DNA of 21,922 nucleotides from a virus. The position numbers were made by a program, and so were the translations under genes. Position 1 is the first letter of the stretch; every line of letters starts with the position of its first letter. A model generated the notes under the pieces. It saw only the letters and a list, made by a program, of their open reading frames with translations. It was not told where the DNA came from and searched no databases. The DNA lies in the IMG/VR virus record IMGVR_UViG_3300009194_000054, positions 1 through 21,922 of that record; one strand, given 5' to 3'. This document shows, one piece after another, positions 1 through 6,739 of the stretch.

Positions 1-1
1 A

Positions 2-14
2 TCTTACCTCTCTT
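2..14 (-). promoter_or_regulatory. Possible ribosome binding site of a leftward gene just off the left edge
   Basis: Read on the minus strand, the first bases of the window give CAAGAGAGGTAAGAT, a purine-rich AGAGAGG followed by a few bases before the edge. The leader of the small leftward gene ending at 811 reads CTAAGAGGTATCTT directly before its ATG. The similarity suggests that another minus-strand gene starts immediately left of position 1. This is inference: the start codon itself is not in the window. Confidence 0.35.
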
Positions 15-27
15 GATTGCATAGGAA

Positions 28-52
28 AGAGGCCAGCACTAAGCCAGCCTCT
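28..52 (-). terminator. Weak hairpin downstream of the leftward genes
   Basis: On the minus strand AGAGGC (pairing 28-33 with 47-52) forms a 6-bp stem, with a possible inner GC/GC pair, and is followed by only three T residues. It lies just after the stop codon of the 177-residue gene. It could be a weak rho-independent terminator or a processing/stability hairpin between that gene and the next leftward gene. The short T run argues against a strong terminator. Confidence 0.3.
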
Positions 53-76
53 TGTTAGATACAATCCTTGTTAGGC

Positions 77-610
77 TTATTCGGTAGCTTCGCTGATCCC
101 TTCCTTGGCCAGCAATTCCTTGATCTGGCGGACCACACCGACAGGAATAACTTTGTCGTGAATACCCTTGGCTTCCTTCTTCTTGATGGTATCCTCTGCC
201 TGCGCCTTGGCGTTCTTGTTCAGCAAGGCATAGAGCAGGCCAGTGAAGTCGGTTGCCTTGGGTTCGGCAGGCGGGGAAAATTCCCAGAAGGGTTCCTTGC
301 TAATCGCCTTGACCATATCGGCAGTCAACTTGGTTTCAGTGTAGGTGAAAGCCTTGGCCTTGGTATCCCAAGCAAATCCAAGCAAGGCTTGCGAGTAGTT
401 GACAAGGGCTTGGGCATAGTAGCCTTCGACCTCATTCGTGATTCGGGTCATAAGCTTTGCCGCCTGTGCCACGTTACCAGAGGCAAGCCATTGGCGAGCA
501 ATCGACAGGATCAGGGATTGAATGTCCTTGCGGAACCCTGCCCCGCGCTTGGCAAGCATAGGGATAGCCTTTTCAATGTCCTCAAAGGACATATTGCCAG
601 TATATTTCAT
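77..610 (-). CDS. Leftward phage protein of unknown function, 177 residues
   Basis: I do not recognise a named family. The protein is predicted to be soluble and mostly helical, with no membrane segment. The N-terminal half (about 1-100) has amphipathic helices rich in Ala and Leu. A distinctive stretch near residues 100-130 reads KEPFWEFSPP then ATDFTGLLYALL. The C-terminus is rich in Lys and Ala. The minus strand is chosen because ATG at 610 follows AAAGGA at a spacing of about 10 bases, and because a second minus-strand gene with its own ribosome site lies directly upstream. A longer plus-strand frame over the same bases (68-829) looks like an antisense shadow. Arg codons are mostly CGN with no CTAG tetramers seen, unlike most late genes in the window. 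It is probably part of an early or middle operon transcribed away from the structural genes. Role unknown. Confidence 0.75.
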   Translation of the reverse strand: MKYTGNMSFEDIEKAIPMLAKRGAGFRKDIQSLILSIARQWLASGNVAQAAKLMTRITNEVEGYYAQALVNYSQALLGFAWDTKAKAFTYTETKLTADMVKAISKEPFWEFSPPAEPKATDFTGLLYALLNKNAKAQAEDTIKKKEAKGIHDKVIPVGVVRQIKELLAKEGISEATE

Positions 611-625
611 GATGGTAGTTTCCTT

Positions 626-811
626 TTATTTGAGGGAAAAGAGTTTCATTCCCTTAGCCTTGCTAACAGAGCTAAAGCTAAGACTGTTGATAGACCCATA
701 GCTGTTGCCATACGTCAAGACACCGGCCAAGGGATCACCCTTGTTAGTGCCTTTGGGAAACCTTGCCGCAACACTGGCGTTCAAGGCGTTACGCTGTTTC
801 TTGGAAGGCAT
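626..811 (-). CDS. Small basic leftward protein of unknown function, 61 residues
   Basis: This is a short Lys/Ser-rich protein beginning MPSKKQRNALNASVAARFP, with a Gly/Asn/Ser-rich middle and a basic C-terminus. No catalytic or membrane motif is visible. The ATG at 811 is preceded by AGAGGT at about 6 bases, a good ribosome site. It lies 15 bases upstream of the 177-residue gene and is probably the first gene of the leftward unit visible here. The basic composition could fit nucleic-acid or ribosome binding, but that is only a guess. Confidence 0.6.
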   Translation of the reverse strand: MPSKKQRNALNASVAARFPKGTNKGDPLAGVLTYGNSYGSINSLSFSSVSKAKGMKLFSLK

Positions 812-820
812 AAGATACCT

Positions 821-884
821 CTTAGCTAGACTAATAATGTCCTTTGATTAAGACACTAATATATCTAGCTACTTACTAGCTAAG
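821..884. repeat. Inverted repeats upstream of the leftward genes
   Basis: CTTAGCTAG at 821-829 is the exact inverse of CTAGCTAAG at 876-884 (9 bp). An alternative pairing uses TAGCTAGA 823-830 with TCTAGCTA 864-871 (8 bp). The element sits directly upstream of the ribosome site of the 61-residue gene. In a leftward transcript it would form alternative 5' leader hairpins; as DNA it could be an operator. Function inferred from position only. Confidence 0.5.
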
Positions 885-1059
885 GCTTGGGCGTTAGGAC
901 AACAGACAATAGCCCATTCAAGGGACAGCAAGTCATAGCCTAGACGCCTAGTTTCCTAGCGTTCAATAGCTAACTCGACTGCATAGGCAGGGCTTGCGCT
1001 TAACCTATCATTTACGGCCGCCATGGCACGACACCATAGCAATCGCAGTCTTATGAGTA

Positions 1060-1151
1060 GTCACCTTGTCTTGGTGACAGGATAGGCAGGACGTACTGCC
1101 GGACCCTTAGACTTGCAGGCTACCCCCTGTCAGGACCAGCTAGGCGCTGGT
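1060..1151. other. Cluster of three GC-rich hairpins, possible structured RNA
   Basis: Three perfect stems lie within 92 bases: GTCACC/GGTGAC (1060-1065 with 1073-1078, 7-base loop), GGCAG/CTGCC (1085-1089 with 1096-1100, 6-base loop) and ACCAGC/GCTGGT (1135-1140 with 1146-1151, 5-base loop). An alternative long-range stem pairs GACAGG at 1076-1081 with CCTGTC near 1127-1132. The motif ATAGGCAGG occurs at 983-991 and again at 1082-1090. The density of stems in an otherwise gene-free stretch suggests a structured transcript or a DNA-level origin element. It does not look like a tRNA. Confidence 0.35.
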
Positions 1152-1276
1152 TGCCTTATGGTTTAGCGAGTGCCGGAACCCTGTCCCTTTCGCCATGAAC
1201 AAGAGATAGGTCATGCAGACAGGCATTGCAAGTAACATATTATTTCAAGACTGTAACAATACGTGATCACTTACGC

Positions 1277-1298
1277 GAAGAAAGAAAGAAAGAAAGAA
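1277..1298 (+). repeat. GAAA microsatellite (polypurine tract)
   Basis: A 22-base pure purine tract holds four full GAAA units flanked by GAA on both sides. It lies between the hairpin cluster and the palindrome array. Such tracts are prone to slippage and can form unusual DNA structures. No coding role is apparent. Confidence 0.85.
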
Positions 1299-1393
1299 CG
1301 GGCGCGCGTAACACAGGGCACAGGGATAAGTAAAGTAACAAAATGTTTCAAGTATGAAATGTAATGGTGATTAACATACTAAAAGAGTAGGAA

Positions 1394-1409
1394 ATAAGCG
1401 AGTGCTTAT
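1394..1409. repeat. 16-bp palindrome, copy 1 (ATAAGC-N4-GCTTAT)
   Basis: ATAAGC 1394-1399, spacer GAGT, GCTTAT 1404-1409. This is a perfect 6-bp dyad with a 4-base spacer, the size of a site for a dimeric DNA-binding protein. It is the first of three copies in the control region. Confidence 0.7.
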
Positions 1410-1427
1410 GTTGTAATAATGTCACAT

Positions 1428-1490
1428 ATACCAATAGTTTATGTATAAGCAGGTGCTTACTTGCGGCAATACCACATAAACCAAAGGTAT
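1428..1490. repeat. Long imperfect inverted repeat, 16-bp arms
   Basis: ATACCAATAGTTTATG at 1428-1443 is matched at 13 of 16 positions by the inverse of CATAAACCAAAGGTAT at 1475-1490. The arms enclose the second ATAAGC palindrome. A further CATAAACTTTAG half-arm follows at 1496-1507. Nested dyads like this are typical of operator or origin DNA; the exact role is unknown. Confidence 0.55.
1445..1460. repeat. 16-bp palindrome, copy 2 (ATAAGC-N4-GCTTAC)
   Basis: ATAAGC 1445-1450, spacer AGGT, GCTTAC 1455-1460. Five of the six arm positions are symmetric. It lies inside the longer inverted repeat 1428-1490 and shares the 10-mer GTATAAGCAG (1443-1452) with copy 3. Confidence 0.7.
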
Positions 1491-1531
1491 AGAGGCATAA
1501 ACTTTAGTTATAGAGAGCAATATTATCGCGT

Positions 1532-1547
1532 ATAAGCAGAAGCTTAT
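1532..1547. repeat. 16-bp palindrome, copy 3 (ATAAGC-N4-GCTTAT)
   Basis: ATAAGC 1532-1537, spacer AGAA, GCTTAT 1542-1547, a perfect 6-bp dyad. Together with copies 1 and 2 it defines a consensus ATAAGC-N4-GCTTAT. The copies start 51 and 87 bases apart. I did not see a further full copy elsewhere in the window. Confidence 0.7.
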
Positions 1548-1709
1548 GAGCATAGCACATAGCATTGCACAGGGGAAGTCTCTTGGAGGGCCACCAAGGG
1601 GGTGTGGGGGTACGTCTGGTTCATAGGAAATACCCCTTAAAATTATCTCACAGAAATTACCATGGTTTGAGGAACCCTCGGCCCGTCATAGTATTCCTTC
1701 TAAGTATTC

Positions 1710-1802
1710 CCTTAAGGAACTCTATGAGCTATCTCCCTATGTACTACGTAGATTAATACCTCTTATTACTTCGTAAGCTACCATAGGGCCTACCTTAAGG
1801 TA
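1710..1802. repeat. CTTAAG-centred palindromes in AT-rich DNA
   Basis: CCTTAAGG occurs at 1710-1717 and inside a perfect 12-bp palindrome TACCTTAAGGTA at 1791-1802; a third CTTAAG lies at 1839-1844. The stretch from about 1790 to 1870 is strongly AT-rich. This could be a melting region, operator sites or simply biased sequence. Nothing coding is seen here. Confidence 0.45.
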
Positions 1803-1904
1803 TATACCTATAATATTATATTACTATAGAAGAGTAGCCTTAAGTACTACCTTATAGTATCTTAGGGTAACAGAGATTTCTTGTCTAGTCAATATAAATA
1901 TTTT

Positions 1905-1916
1905 ACAAGGTCTTGT
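1905..1916. promoter_or_regulatory. Palindrome just upstream of the late promoter, possible operator
   Basis: ACAAG-GT-CTTGT is a 10-of-12 palindrome ending 9 bases before the -35 box. TTGTC within it (1913-1917) is also the inverse of GACAA at 1928-1932, which overlaps the -35 box. The position would suit an activator or repressor of the late promoter. No regulator can be assigned. Confidence 0.35.
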
Positions 1917-1925
1917 CGATTTAAC

Positions 1926-1954
1926 TTGACAATAAGCCTCACTTGTGTTAGAAT
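1926..1954 (+). promoter_or_regulatory. Sigma70-type promoter for the late operon
   Basis: A perfect -35 box TTGACA (1926-1931) is followed after exactly 17 bases by TAGAAT (1949-1954), one mismatch from the -10 consensus TATAAT. Transcription would begin near 1961, just before the small terminase gene. A promoter this close to consensus implies use of the host RNA polymerase. It is the only such match I saw ahead of the late genes. Confidence 0.75.
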
Positions 1955-1972
1955 TACTGTATTGATGAATTA

Positions 1973-2500
1973 TTGGGAGAACCATGTCCTTTGTCTATCC
2001 TTACCTACAAAGACCTTTACAACTCCAGAAACAACATGCTCCTTCGGGAAGTCTTCTGTGAGTACAACCCCGACGCCCTCTTGACTGTAGACAAGAACGG
2101 TAAGGACGGTAAGATTTGTCTATTCAAACTTTACATGACCCATGCTGTAGACGACCCATCTGAGGTCACCTTTGCTGAGGAAGTATTCGGAGACCTGTTC
2201 TTCTGGCAGAACCTCACAGAGTCCGTGTTCTTTAAGAAACACGCCGAAGAGTGGAGATTCCTTGCGGCCACCAAGCGTAAGCAAGCAGCCTTCAAAGCTA
2301 TTATTGAAGAAGTCAAGAACAATGGTAAGTCCAGCTTTACTGCCGCCAAGTACCTGATCGAGGAGCCTTGGAAGACTGGTAATGCTATGGAACGTAAGCG
2401 TAACAAGAAGATGGTATCCGACTCTGCTGACATCGCATTCAATGAGTCTACCATTCAATCTGATATTAAACGTCTGAGAGAAGATGGCGTCCTTAACTAA
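1973..2500 (+). CDS. terS: Terminase small subunit
   Basis: This is the DNA-recognition subunit of the packaging motor, which would bind phage DNA and hand it to the large subunit. The assignment comes from position directly before and overlapping the large subunit, and from the C-terminal sequence KSSFTAAKYLIEEPWK followed by a Lys/Arg-rich stretch and a terminal helix ending IKRLREDGVLN, a pattern of podovirus small terminases. The start is uncertain. The longest frame opens with TTG at 1973, which has no good ribosome site and only about 12 bases of leader. TTG at 1991 lies 11 bases after GGGAG, and ATG at 2036 would begin MLLREVFCEY. The best-placed ATG (1984, 4 bases after GGGAG) is in another frame and stops after 25 codons. 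The product is 154-175 residues depending on start. It overlaps the next gene by 17 bases. Confidence 0.8.
   Translation: MGEPCPLSILTYKDLYNSRNNMLLREVFCEYNPDALLTVDKNGKDGKICLFKLYMTHAVDDPSEVTFAEEVFGDLFFWQNLTESVFFKKHAEEWRFLAATKRKQAAFKAIIEEVKNNGKSSFTAAKYLIEEPWKTGNAMERKRNKKMVSDSADIAFNESTIQSDIKRLREDGVLN
1984..2061 (+). other. Out-of-frame 25-codon ORF over the terminase start
   Basis: ATG at 1984 follows GGGAG at 1975-1979 and is the first AUG with a ribosome site after the predicted transcript start. It encodes MSFVYPYLQRPLQLQ and ten further residues, then TGA at 2059-2061. It lies in the frame from which a +1 shift would enter the terminase frame. It could be a leader peptide coupled to terminase translation, the true N-terminus reached by a frameshift, or the trace of a sequencing error. 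It is listed for its position, not for a known product. Confidence 0.3.
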
Positions 2501-4034
2501 TAGAACTCTTGTTCAGGAAGTAAGAGAAGCAGCAGAAGCTGATCTTCTGTTCTTCATCAAGCTTATCGCTCCTGAGCAAGTACTGGGTGCCTGCCACGAA
2601 GAGGTAACCAAGTGGTGGACCAGAGAAGACGCTTCCACCCACCAACTACTACTCTTCCCCCGTGACCACCAGAAGTCCCGTCTGGTAGCCTACCGTGTTG
2701 TCTGGGAACTAACCAAAGACCCTACCCTAAGAGTCTTGTATATCTCAGCTACAGCGAACCTTGCAGAGAAGCAACTCTCATTCATGAAGTCCCTGATGAC
2801 TTCTGATATCTATCGTCGCTACTGGCCCGAGATGGTCCACCCAGACGAAGGCAAGCGTAAGAAGTGGTCTGTGTCTGAAATTATGGTAGACCACCCTAAG
2901 CGTGAGAGTGAGAAGGTCAGAGACCCCTCTATCTTCACCGCAGGTCTAACCACTACGATTACTGGTATGCACTGTGACATCGCTGTTATGGATGACGTGG
3001 TGATCTACGAGAACGCCTACTCCCGAGAAGGTAGAGACAAGGTTAAGAGCCAGTACTCCCTGCTCTCGTCTATTGAAGGCGCTAACGCCCGTGAGTGGGT
3101 TGTGGGTACCAGATACCACCCTGCCGATCTTTACTCTGAACTAATGTCAATGACTCAAGACAGCTACGATAGTGAGGGTGACCTTGTCGGTTCAGAGTCA
3201 ATCTACGAGGTCTACGAGAAGGCTGTAGAGTCTAGAGGCGATGGTACCGGAGAGTTTCTCTGGCCCAAGCAACAGCGTAAAGATGGTAAGTGGTTTGGCT
3301 TCGACCAGAAGATTCTAGCCAAGAAGCGTGGCCAGTACCTTGATCGTGGACAGTTCAGAGCACAGTACTACAACGACCCCTCTGACCCAGATAACGTACC
3401 AGTTACTAGAGATAAGTTTCAGTATTATGAAAGAAAGTTTCTAAGTCAAGAGAACGGCTATTGGTACTTCCGTGGTAAACGTCTAAACGTCTTCGCTGCG
3501 GTGGACTTCGCTTTCAGTCTGTCCAAGAAGGCTGACTACACCGCCATTGTTGTGACGGGTATAGACAGTGAGAACCAAATTTACGTCTTGGACATTGATC
3601 GTTTTCGTACTGATCGTATTAGTGAATATTTCGACCACCTACTCCAACTATCGAATAAGTGGGGATTTAGAAAACTTAGAGCAGAAGTTACGGTCGCTCA
3701 AGCCGTCATTGTTCGACAACTAAAAGAGATGATCAGGGATAATGGTTTGGCTATCTCCATTGATGAGCACAGACCGCAAGCCAAGAGTAAAGCAGAGCGT
3801 ATCCTAGCTATTCTCGAACCTCGCTACGATATGGGTAACATCTGGCACTACAAAGGTGGTGAGTGCCAAACACTAGAGGAAGAACTCTCTAGCCGTAATC
3901 CAGCCCATGACGATATCATTGATGCCTTTAGTAATTCTATCGACATCTCAGTAAAACCAACAAGAAACATAAACTCAGAACGTAAGTCCTCCATTGATTG
4001 GACCCAGTTCAGATTCAGAGGTCAAGCGGCTTAA
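2484..4034 (+). CDS. terL: Terminase large subunit (ATPase and nuclease)
   Basis: This is the packaging motor that pumps DNA into the procapsid through the portal and cuts it. The 516 residues show the two expected domains. The ATPase domain has a Walker A-type motif PRDHQKSR at 59-66, Walker B with catalytic acid DIAVMDD at 165-171, and a coupling motif VVGTRYHP at 206-213. The RNase H-like nuclease domain has Asp341 in AAVDFAFS, Glu401 in RAEVTV, and the final acidic pair in HDDIIDAFSNS at 475-485. All key acidic residues are present, so it should be active. The Walker A form is that of T7-like terminases. ATG at 2484 overlaps the small subunit. The stop codon shares its last base with the portal ATG. 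Confidence 0.95.
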   Translation: MASLTNRTLVQEVREAAEADLLFFIKLIAPEQVLGACHEEVTKWWTREDASTHQLLLFPRDHQKSRLVAYRVVWELTKDPTLRVLYISATANLAEKQLSFMKSLMTSDIYRRYWPEMVHPDEGKRKKWSVSEIMVDHPKRESEKVRDPSIFTAGLTTTITGMHCDIAVMDDVVIYENAYSREGRDKVKSQYSLLSSIEGANAREWVVGTRYHPADLYSELMSMTQDSYDSEGDLVGSESIYEVYEKAVESRGDGTGEFLWPKQQRKDGKWFGFDQKILAKKRGQYLDRGQFRAQYYNDPSDPDNVPVTRDKFQYYERKFLSQENGYWYFRGKRLNVFAAVDFAFSLSKKADYTAIVVTGIDSENQIYVLDIDRFRTDRISEYFDHLLQLSNKWGFRKLRAEVTVAQAVIVRQLKEMIRDNGLAISIDEHRPQAKSKAERILAILEPRYDMGNIWHYKGGECQTLEEELSSRNPAHDDIIDAFSNSIDISVKPTRNINSERKSSIDWTQFRFRGQAA

Positions 4035-5995: not shown

Positions 5996-6739
5996 ATGCT
6001 TTTTGAGGACCAAACCAAGGGTCAAGACGGCAATCAACCCCAACAGACTCAAACCCAAGTAGACTGGCTGGCTAAGATTGTGGAGGTGAAGGGTGAGGCG
6101 TTCAAGGACCCTCAAGTACTCGCTAAATCCAAACTAGAGTCGGATAACTTTATCGGTGAACTTCAACGTCAAGTAGAAGAACTTCGTACCGAACTGAGTA
6201 AGGAAGAGTACGCTAAAAAGCTCCTAACCGAATTGCAAGGCAGGCGGCAAGACCCCAATGCAAACCTTGCACCGAAAGACGGGGAGACTAAACCGAGCGA
6301 CACCAAGCCGGAACTTAGTGAAGATGTAATCAAACGCCTAGTCGAACAGACGCTGACTCAACGAGAACAGGCCAGCACCTCCACCCAGAATACGAGGCTT
6401 GTGCAAGAAAAGCTACAAGAGAAGTACGGGACAGAGGCTAAAGCTTACGTTGAGAAGAAGGCCCAAGAACTTGGGATGAGCCTAGAAAGACTATCCAGTC
6501 TTGCCGCTGAGTCCCCTACCGCCTTCATGACGTTGATTGGAGAACCTGCCCAAGAGTATAAACCTCTGGTTTCTGGTACGATCAATACGTCTTCAGCCGC
6601 CTATTCGAATCCTGCGGAGAAGAACTGGGAATACTACCAGAATCTTCGTAGAACTAACAAGCAACTTTACTTTGACCCCAAGACGCAACAACAAATGCTA
6701 AAAGATAAGATGCGCCTTGGCGACCGCTTTGGAAATTAA
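5996..6739 (+). CDS. Capsid scaffolding protein
   Basis: This is the internal scaffold that would guide assembly of the capsid protein into a procapsid and then leave. The 247 residues fit scaffolds of T7-like phages. The N-terminus is rich in Gln, Asp and Pro. A coiled-coil-like charged segment runs at about 45-85 (LQRQVEELRTEL), followed by a Pro/Lys/Asp-rich linker, further charged helices and a C-terminal segment with KNWEYYQNLRR and a basic end, where scaffolds usually contact the coat. It lies immediately before the capsid gene. ATG at 5996 has AGAAGGA 5 bases upstream. No protease motif is visible, so a fused prohead protease is unlikely. Confidence 0.85.
   Translation: MLFEDQTKGQDGNQPQQTQTQVDWLAKIVEVKGEAFKDPQVLAKSKLESDNFIGELQRQVEELRTELSKEEYAKKLLTELQGRRQDPNANLAPKDGETKPSDTKPELSEDVIKRLVEQTLTQREQASTSTQNTRLVQEKLQEKYGTEAKAYVEKKAQELGMSLERLSSLAAESPTAFMTLIGEPAQEYKPLVSGTINTSSAAYSNPAEKNWEYYQNLRRTNKQLYFDPKTQQQMLKDKMRLGDRFGN

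Follow-up and report, generated by a model that had tools for sequence, protein, structure and literature searches.

The gene-free region between the divergent gene blocks of this podophage is probably the concatemer junction of a short-DTR phage, where the terminase would generate the DTR and which the late promoter adjoins. This is the most likely reading because a profile of the region finds the genome ends of phage isolates, and because the DTR boundaries annotated in ICBM1 and ICBM2 share one alignment column. Comparison with relatives supports the non-coding conservation of the region, the homology of one element to the ICBM1/ICBM2 DTR boundary, and the late promoter. The presence and the length of a DTR in this phage are predictions from the same comparison. 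Herein, the window is the complete virus record of 21,922 bases. Its features are collected in Table 1.

Table 1 Features of the gene-free region and the flanking genes, in window positions.
Feature	Position	Strand	Basis
Leftward gene, phrog_1448 (function unknown)	77-610	-	PHROG match
First gene of the leftward block	626-811	-	ORF list; no PHROG match
Gene-free region between divergent blocks	812-1990		Gap size; no codon phasing of mismatches in the conserved parts
Conserved block shared with L008	1050-1200		48.3 bits vs best shuffle 29.7
Left hairpin GACCAGC-TAGGC-GCTGGTT, 7 pairs including one G-T	1134-1152		Pairing search
Conserved block shared with L005 and L002	1212-1443		69.7 and 59.7 bits
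AAGTAACA..TGTTTCAAG repeat, copy 1	1230-1256		Repeat count
AAGTAACA..TGTTTCAAG repeat, copy 2	1333-1359		Repeat count
Palindrome ATAAGC-N4-GCTTAT, copy 1	1394-1409		Palindrome count
CATAAACCAAAGGTTTATG-like box	1425-1443		Pattern count
Palindrome, copy 2, one mismatch	1445-1460		Palindrome count
Predicted DTR extent, if length 121-173 nt	1459-1631		Inferred from five relatives; left edge not fixed
Conserved block	about 1469-1725		Shared with L003, L002, L005, partly L008
Second CATAAACCAAAGGTTTATG-like box	1475-1493		Pattern count
Palindrome, copy 3	1532-1547		Palindrome count
Conserved terminus element of the genome end, with two G runs, a variable linker, the cut region, and an ATTWTCTMA box	1568-1692	+	Profile search
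Predicted right DTR boundary (terminase cut)	between 1631 and 1632		Column of the ICBM1/ICBM2 annotated boundaries; inferred
Conserved block	about 1720-1932		Shared with L009, L005, L003, L007, L002
Hairpin, covarying 7-bp stem, ACTMCGTAG in loop	1735-1788		Arm pairing across loci
Sigma-70-type late promoter TTGACA-17-TAGAAT	1926-1954	+	11/12 consensus bases; shuffle test
First late gene, probable small terminase subunit	1991-2500	+	phrog_8035 (function unknown); position before TerL
Terminase large subunit (TerL)	2484-4034	+	phrog_38, E 4e-90

Phage identity and gene organization

Judged by protein similarity, the phage is a podophage close to the Cobavirinae (Zobellviridae). In tblastn, TerL identity is 70.5% to Lentibacter phage ICBM2, 69.8% to Roseobacter phage CRP-5, and 65.6% to Roseobacter phage CRP-4, and more distant Zobellviridae are found among the TerL matches beyond the Cobavirinae. 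The PHROG matches appear in the order TerL, head-tail adaptor, major head protein, tail, and internal virion proteins. Both TerL and the structural genes are related in the way expected of a member of the Zobellviridae near the Cobavirinae. The DNA similarity to named phages is slight: megablast of the entire window aligned 65 nt to one record, and blastn with 600-2600 aligned 71 nt to ICBM2. TerL relatives are encoded at 40 IMG/VR loci, eight of them at 81-89% identity over almost the entire protein. Relatives are cited below by L numbers.

The first late gene is a probable small terminase subunit, a function suggested by its position before TerL. Two leftward genes are present in the window, and further leftward frames are present in L005. 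A homologue of the gene at 77-610 was found in one of 37 related records, that of L005, at the same place. The order of early block, gene-free stretch, and late block is common to ICBM1, ICBM2, and L005. The two ends of the L005 contig (48,226 bases) are identical over 127 bases, and the contig thus closes to a circle in the assembly; no such overlap was found in two other long contigs tested in the same way.

Extra frames lie between the first late gene and TerL in several relatives (L005:4472-5017, 181 aa and HNH-like by eye; L008:2634-4997, 787 aa; L003:1640-2161, two small frames), and the window has none there (2484-2500). This site is perhaps an insertion hot spot. In L003, a tRNA-Met (CAT) gene (1034-1112) separates the late promoter from the first late gene.

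Extent and conservation of the gene-free region

Gene starts were taken from the ORF list, the one at 1991 by homology and the others by eye. With these starts, the region is the only large intergenic gap of the whole record (1,179 nt), and the remaining gene junctions range from -74 to +24 nt. The first-pass annotation, made from the sequence alone, had described such a gap in an otherwise tightly packed genome, and this description holds. It had placed the limits at 812 and 1972. The left edge stands, and the right edge is moved to 1990, since the alignment with relatives places the gene start at a TTG at 1991. The AT tracts that it reported are found in 1701-2000 (G+C 0.31-0.33) and not in 1001-1200 (0.55).

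The region was compared with the gene-free regions of eight relatives, with 100 dinucleotide shuffles as the control. Local alignments reach 84 bits, compared with a shuffle maximum of 29.7. Two of the eight relatives, L057 and L006, gave nothing of at least 30 bits against 812-1990. The mismatch rates of the conserved blocks by phase are 0.28, 0.28, and 0.33, versus 0.23, 0.15, and 0.49 in the next gene, and the indels are mostly of one or two bases. The nearly equal phases and the short indels indicate that the conserved blocks are non-coding. Some short frames have protein-level similarity (best E 4e-7), which is read as a by-product of the nucleotide conservation.

The first-pass annotation had set its view of a functional region against a degraded gene or a stretch varying freely without conserved blocks; conserved blocks with unphased mismatches were found. 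A degraded gene is extremely improbable. Open frames of up to 87 codons from stop to stop do resemble L003 (E 4e-7) and L002 locally, and other frames have similarity on both strands, but the phase rates are not those of the neighboring gene, and most indels are of one or two bases. A tRNA search of the window returned nothing in the gene-free region.

A terminus element shared with the genome ends of isolates

The profile was built from the terminus element of the window and its counterparts in L002, L003, L005, and L008 only; no isolate was included. Its top match was the gene-free genome-end region in all six cobavirus isolates, which are mutually related and do not represent six independent trials. 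The E values were 1.4e-6 for CRP-4, 7.6e-6 for ICBM1, 8.1e-5 for ICBM2, 8.2e-5 for ICBM3, 5.5e-4 for CRP-5, and 1.4e-3 for P12053L. The next matches had E of 2.3 or worse and included, for ICBM2 and ICBM1, the other copy of the DTR. In both phages the annotated DTR boundary is inside the profile match, and in the joint alignment the two boundaries occupy the single column that corresponds to the junction of 1631 and 1632 in the window.

The window therefore has a gene-free junction between modules with a conserved terminus element, as in short-DTR phages of the cobavirus type. A packaging site or terminal repeats, which were among the options of the first-pass annotation, are well supported by this homology to annotated DTR ends. 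Since the window holds one copy of the region, a terminal repeat cannot be seen in the sequence. The length range used for the predicted DTR, 121-173 nt, is that annotated or reported for ICBM1-3, RIO-1, and VpV262.

When extended with the isolates, the profile also matched SIO1, CVT22, TC6, and CW02; the CW02 match overlaps an annotated small gene. Among 57 distinct contigs, 24 matched at E <=0.1. Four of these had built the model and two had been fetched by the element pattern; among the 51 contigs outside model-building and pattern-fetching, 18 matched, not all of them mutually independent. The 57-contig table omits further pieces of listed contigs (L042, L051-L055, L058, L079-L088, L095, L096), the ICBM1/ICBM2 records (L099, L100, L102, L104), L101, and L097. 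The match in L097 was rejected as due to chance, its frames being those of a transposase region. The other 33 contigs had no profile match; nine of them span 5 kb left of TerL, which is perhaps short of the junction.

Further out, no profile match was found at the genome ends of RIO-1 and VpV262 with their annotated repeats (121 and 138 bp), in the searched pieces of the circular record T5S1-k141_653015, whose ends are gene-free, or in the searched stretch of ICP2, which also has no large gene-free gap. The annotated repeat of Klyazma ends at 711, and the profile match is at 747-840, about 90 bp off. In view of Klyazma, RIO-1, VpV262, T5S1-k141_653015, CW02, and the unmatched contigs, the element location appears firm for cobavirus-like phages and looser further out.

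A weight matrix was made from the 26-base right flank of the boundary, with the tested genome left out. The true boundary ranked first in ICBM2, second in ICBM1, and second in VpV262 (tied, within 2 nt); those of RIO-1 and Klyazma were outside the top five. The left borders of ICBM1, ICBM2, RIO-1, VpV262, and Klyazma have no common sequence by eye, and the left boundary of the DTR is thus not predictable. Three contig ends (L006, L007, L071) lie within 25 nt of the predicted cut. This clustering is given little weight, because contig breaks at this place are not a clear expectation for a collapsed DTR.

Two observations on the borders were made in isolates. The left DTR border of ICBM2 reads GGT/ATTTCC, and CRP-5 has GTATTTCC at a like place. 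This left border is the reverse complement of the predicted right border of the window group, GGAAAT/ACC (window 1620-1640), and the two are perhaps an inverted pair of cut sites. The records of CRP-4 and CRP-5 begin at the first base of a gene and have the terminus match about 0.3-0.7 kb from the other end, so the physical ends are probably not where these records were opened.

Two hairpins with changed bases in the stems

A hairpin with a 7-bp stem and a loop of 32-40 nt in seven loci is situated to the right of the predicted cut and to the left of the late promoter (1735-1788). Its arms pair in 42 of 42 cells across the seven loci (six distinct arm pairs), and four of the seven stem positions vary. 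All 42 paired cells are Watson-Crick with no G-T, in what is a small sample. When the arms were permuted across loci, one of 720 arrangements, the true pairing, gave full pairing; the arms had been chosen by eye, so this number overstates the case. The pairing was counted by script because MAFFT misaligned both hairpins. On this comparison, a covarying inverted repeat appears to be present near the predicted DTR. The loop word is absent from L008 and L057, though their sequence covers this stretch, and no such hairpin was seen in them. Three pattern scans for more hairpins returned only contigs already known and L110, which contains the loop word, gave no match to the terminus profile, and seems unrelated.

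The left hairpin was found in three of six regions searched, and its seven pairs are preserved in L005 and L008 despite base changes. Among the three regions without it, the L002 and L003 contigs begin to the right of 1134-1152. Folding of the tract was compared with 60 shuffles for each sequence. It is stronger than the shuffles in L002, L003, L005, and L006 (z -3.6 to -6.5) and in L007 (-2.6), and not clearly above them in L008 (-1.9), L057 (-1.6), window 1661-1925 (-1.5), and L009 (-0.2).

The Rfam search of 1-3000 gave three matches, all below the gathering score and none in the gene-free region. The small RNA suggested in the first-pass annotation thus finds no Rfam support in this stretch, which nonetheless holds two conserved hairpins. 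A small structured RNA or a leader RNA containing these hairpins would be compatible with a concatemer junction, and both stems are kept with changed bases; however, it is very unlikely that such an RNA is made here. No family reaches the gathering score, hairpin 1735-1788 is upstream of the late promoter and hence absent from the late leader, and Watson-Crick pairing without G-T in the 42 cells of this small sample is what a constraint at the DNA level would give.

Repeats and palindromes left of the predicted cut

The dyads and direct repeats that had been noted at first pass are present, and the repeat words are more frequent than expected. AAGTAACANANTGTTTCAAG occurs twice in the gene-free region (expected 0.03), and a CATAAACCAAAGGTTTATG-like box also occurs twice (expected 0.00), with a third match outside the region at 6557. 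With up to four mismatches, this box was found in five of six gene-free regions checked, and once outside them, in the window. Two copies of the AAGTAACA..TGTTTCAAG repeat are likewise readable in L005. The palindrome ATAAGC(N4)GCTTAT occurs three times, compared with 1.17 expected at up to two mismatches; 10 of 100 shuffles reach three copies, so the palindrome is weak by itself. The AT-rich stretch 1660-1925 contains dense short palindromes (CTTAAG, TACGTA, CCTTAAGG, and others), whose style is common to the relatives and whose order is not.

The repeats at 1230-1550 could be operator, terminase, or initiator sites. If they were initiator sites and the AT-rich palindromic tract served for unwinding, the region would be, perhaps in addition to a concatemer junction, a replication origin. 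The AT-rich 1701-2000, the repeats, and the low folding z-scores of the palindrome-rich tract in several relatives are consistent with an origin, but the z-score of the window itself for 1661-1925 is only -1.5, and an origin is considered unlikely.

A late promoter and the question of divergent control

Promoters were sought in the 220 nt that precede the first late gene, in the window, nine metagenomic relatives, and five isolates. The best site scored 9.0 to 12 in all 15 sequences. Shuffles of the 220 nt of the window had a mean of 8.7 and a maximum of 10.0 (n=300), and none reached the score of the window, which supports the promoter assigned to the right end of the region at first pass. 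Eleven of the 15 sequences exceed the shuffle maximum; L002 (9.0), CRP-4 (9.7), L003, and L009 (both 10.0) are below or equal to it. The search edge and distances are off by some bases in L004, L007, L008, and L009. Words of the TGTC(G/T)A type recur by eye upstream of the late promoter, in window 1855-1920 and in several relatives, and are possibly an activator site.

On the leftward strand of the window, the best early sigma-70 site is no better than shuffles (77 of 100 reach its score). Similarly, no early promoter above shuffles was found in L005, L008, L057, ICBM1, ICBM2, P12053L, or VpV262. RIO-1 and Klyazma do carry a leftward-strand sigma-70 site (0 of 100 shuffles reach it). Control of both gene blocks, as first proposed, is thus sustained for the late block and not for the early block, for which no consensus promoter was found.

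These results also bear on whether the region is a divergent control region only, composed of the late promoter and operators for phage or host regulators. The similarity to DTR ends would then be shared regulatory sequence, and the physical ends would lie elsewhere. The late promoter is present, the palindromic repeats resemble operator sites, and the Klyazma boundary is about 90 bp from its match. Against this, the profile with matches in the isolates coincides with the annotated DTR boundary and lies 294 nt from the promoter, on its left side, the ICBM1 and ICBM2 boundaries are in one column, and no early promoter stands above shuffles in the window, L005, L008, L057, ICBM1, or ICBM2. Regulation as the sole role is therefore judged quite unlikely.

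Proposed processing of the junction

In the preferred reading as a concatemer junction, replication would produce head-to-tail concatemers in which leftward (early) genes, one DTR copy, and rightward (late) genes follow in turn. The terminase would recognise the G-rich and ATTWTCTMA element and cut near the predicted boundary, which would create one of the mature ends. The other would come from a cut made further to the left once the repeat has been duplicated. The late promoter would end up just inside one end of the mature molecule. Hairpin 1735-1788 may act at the DNA level in junction processing, and the palindromes left of the cut may bind the terminase or a regulator. By analogy with T7, the hairpin might take part in DTR duplication.

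A composite terminus module can be proposed tentatively, though it is rather unlikely. It would consist of the cut element, present in several Zobellviridae genera, and a DNA hairpin some 100 nt beyond the repeat, with a freely covarying stem and a conserved loop word, which would prime DTR duplication by fold-back of the displaced strand.

Comparison with known systems

The location of DTRs within the ORF-free region of cobaviruses is already published; cobavirus DTRs mapped by PacBio are 159-173 bp, and the SIO1 ORF-free region resembles them (PMC6775973). The covarying hairpin and the wider conservation of the element were not found described in the consulted parts of PMC6775973, PMC9960094, PMC12697139, PMC10580990, PMC4925675, and PMC9503643, which does not establish their absence from print.

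The DTRs of ICBM1, ICBM2, and ICBM3 lie, like the region in the window, in an ORF-free region between two divergent gene modules, with a G-rich DTR end and similar flanking sequence at the boundary. Their DTRs are annotated or reported, whereas that of the window is predicted by homology. The boundary letters differ, being GGAAAT/ACC (predicted) in the window as against TACAAC/ACA and TACAAT/GCG in the ICBM1/ICBM2 pair. The late side of ICBM1 and ICBM2 opens with a hypothetical gene and tail genes, that of the window with the probable small terminase. RIO-1 (121 bp) and VpV262 (138 bp; Zobellviridae) are alike in having the repeat in a gene-free end region with early and late genes on opposite sides; they differ in having no profile match, VpV262 being found by the short matrix only. 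Klebsiella phage Klyazma (Zobellviridae, 711-bp long terminal repeat) has a gene-free junction in the same orientation and a profile match (E 3e-6), but the match is 36-130 nt outside the annotated repeat.

A sequence signature of this kind would make virion ends predictable in metagenomic podophage contigs without read-end data. Similarly, a conserved hairpin beside a terminal repeat would offer a way to study the duplication of short terminal repeats in the course of packaging. If an inverted repeat flanks the DTR of a podophage, hairpin-primed synthesis could duplicate that DTR, and a "hairpin" processing intermediate was reportedly proposed for the T7 concatemer junction by Chung and coworkers in 1990. 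The likeness of the window to T7 would lie in the inverted repeat beside the predicted repeat, and it would be one of a possible mechanism rather than of compared sequences. If the composite module is real, it would support, at the level of the sequence, the hairpin route put forward for T7.
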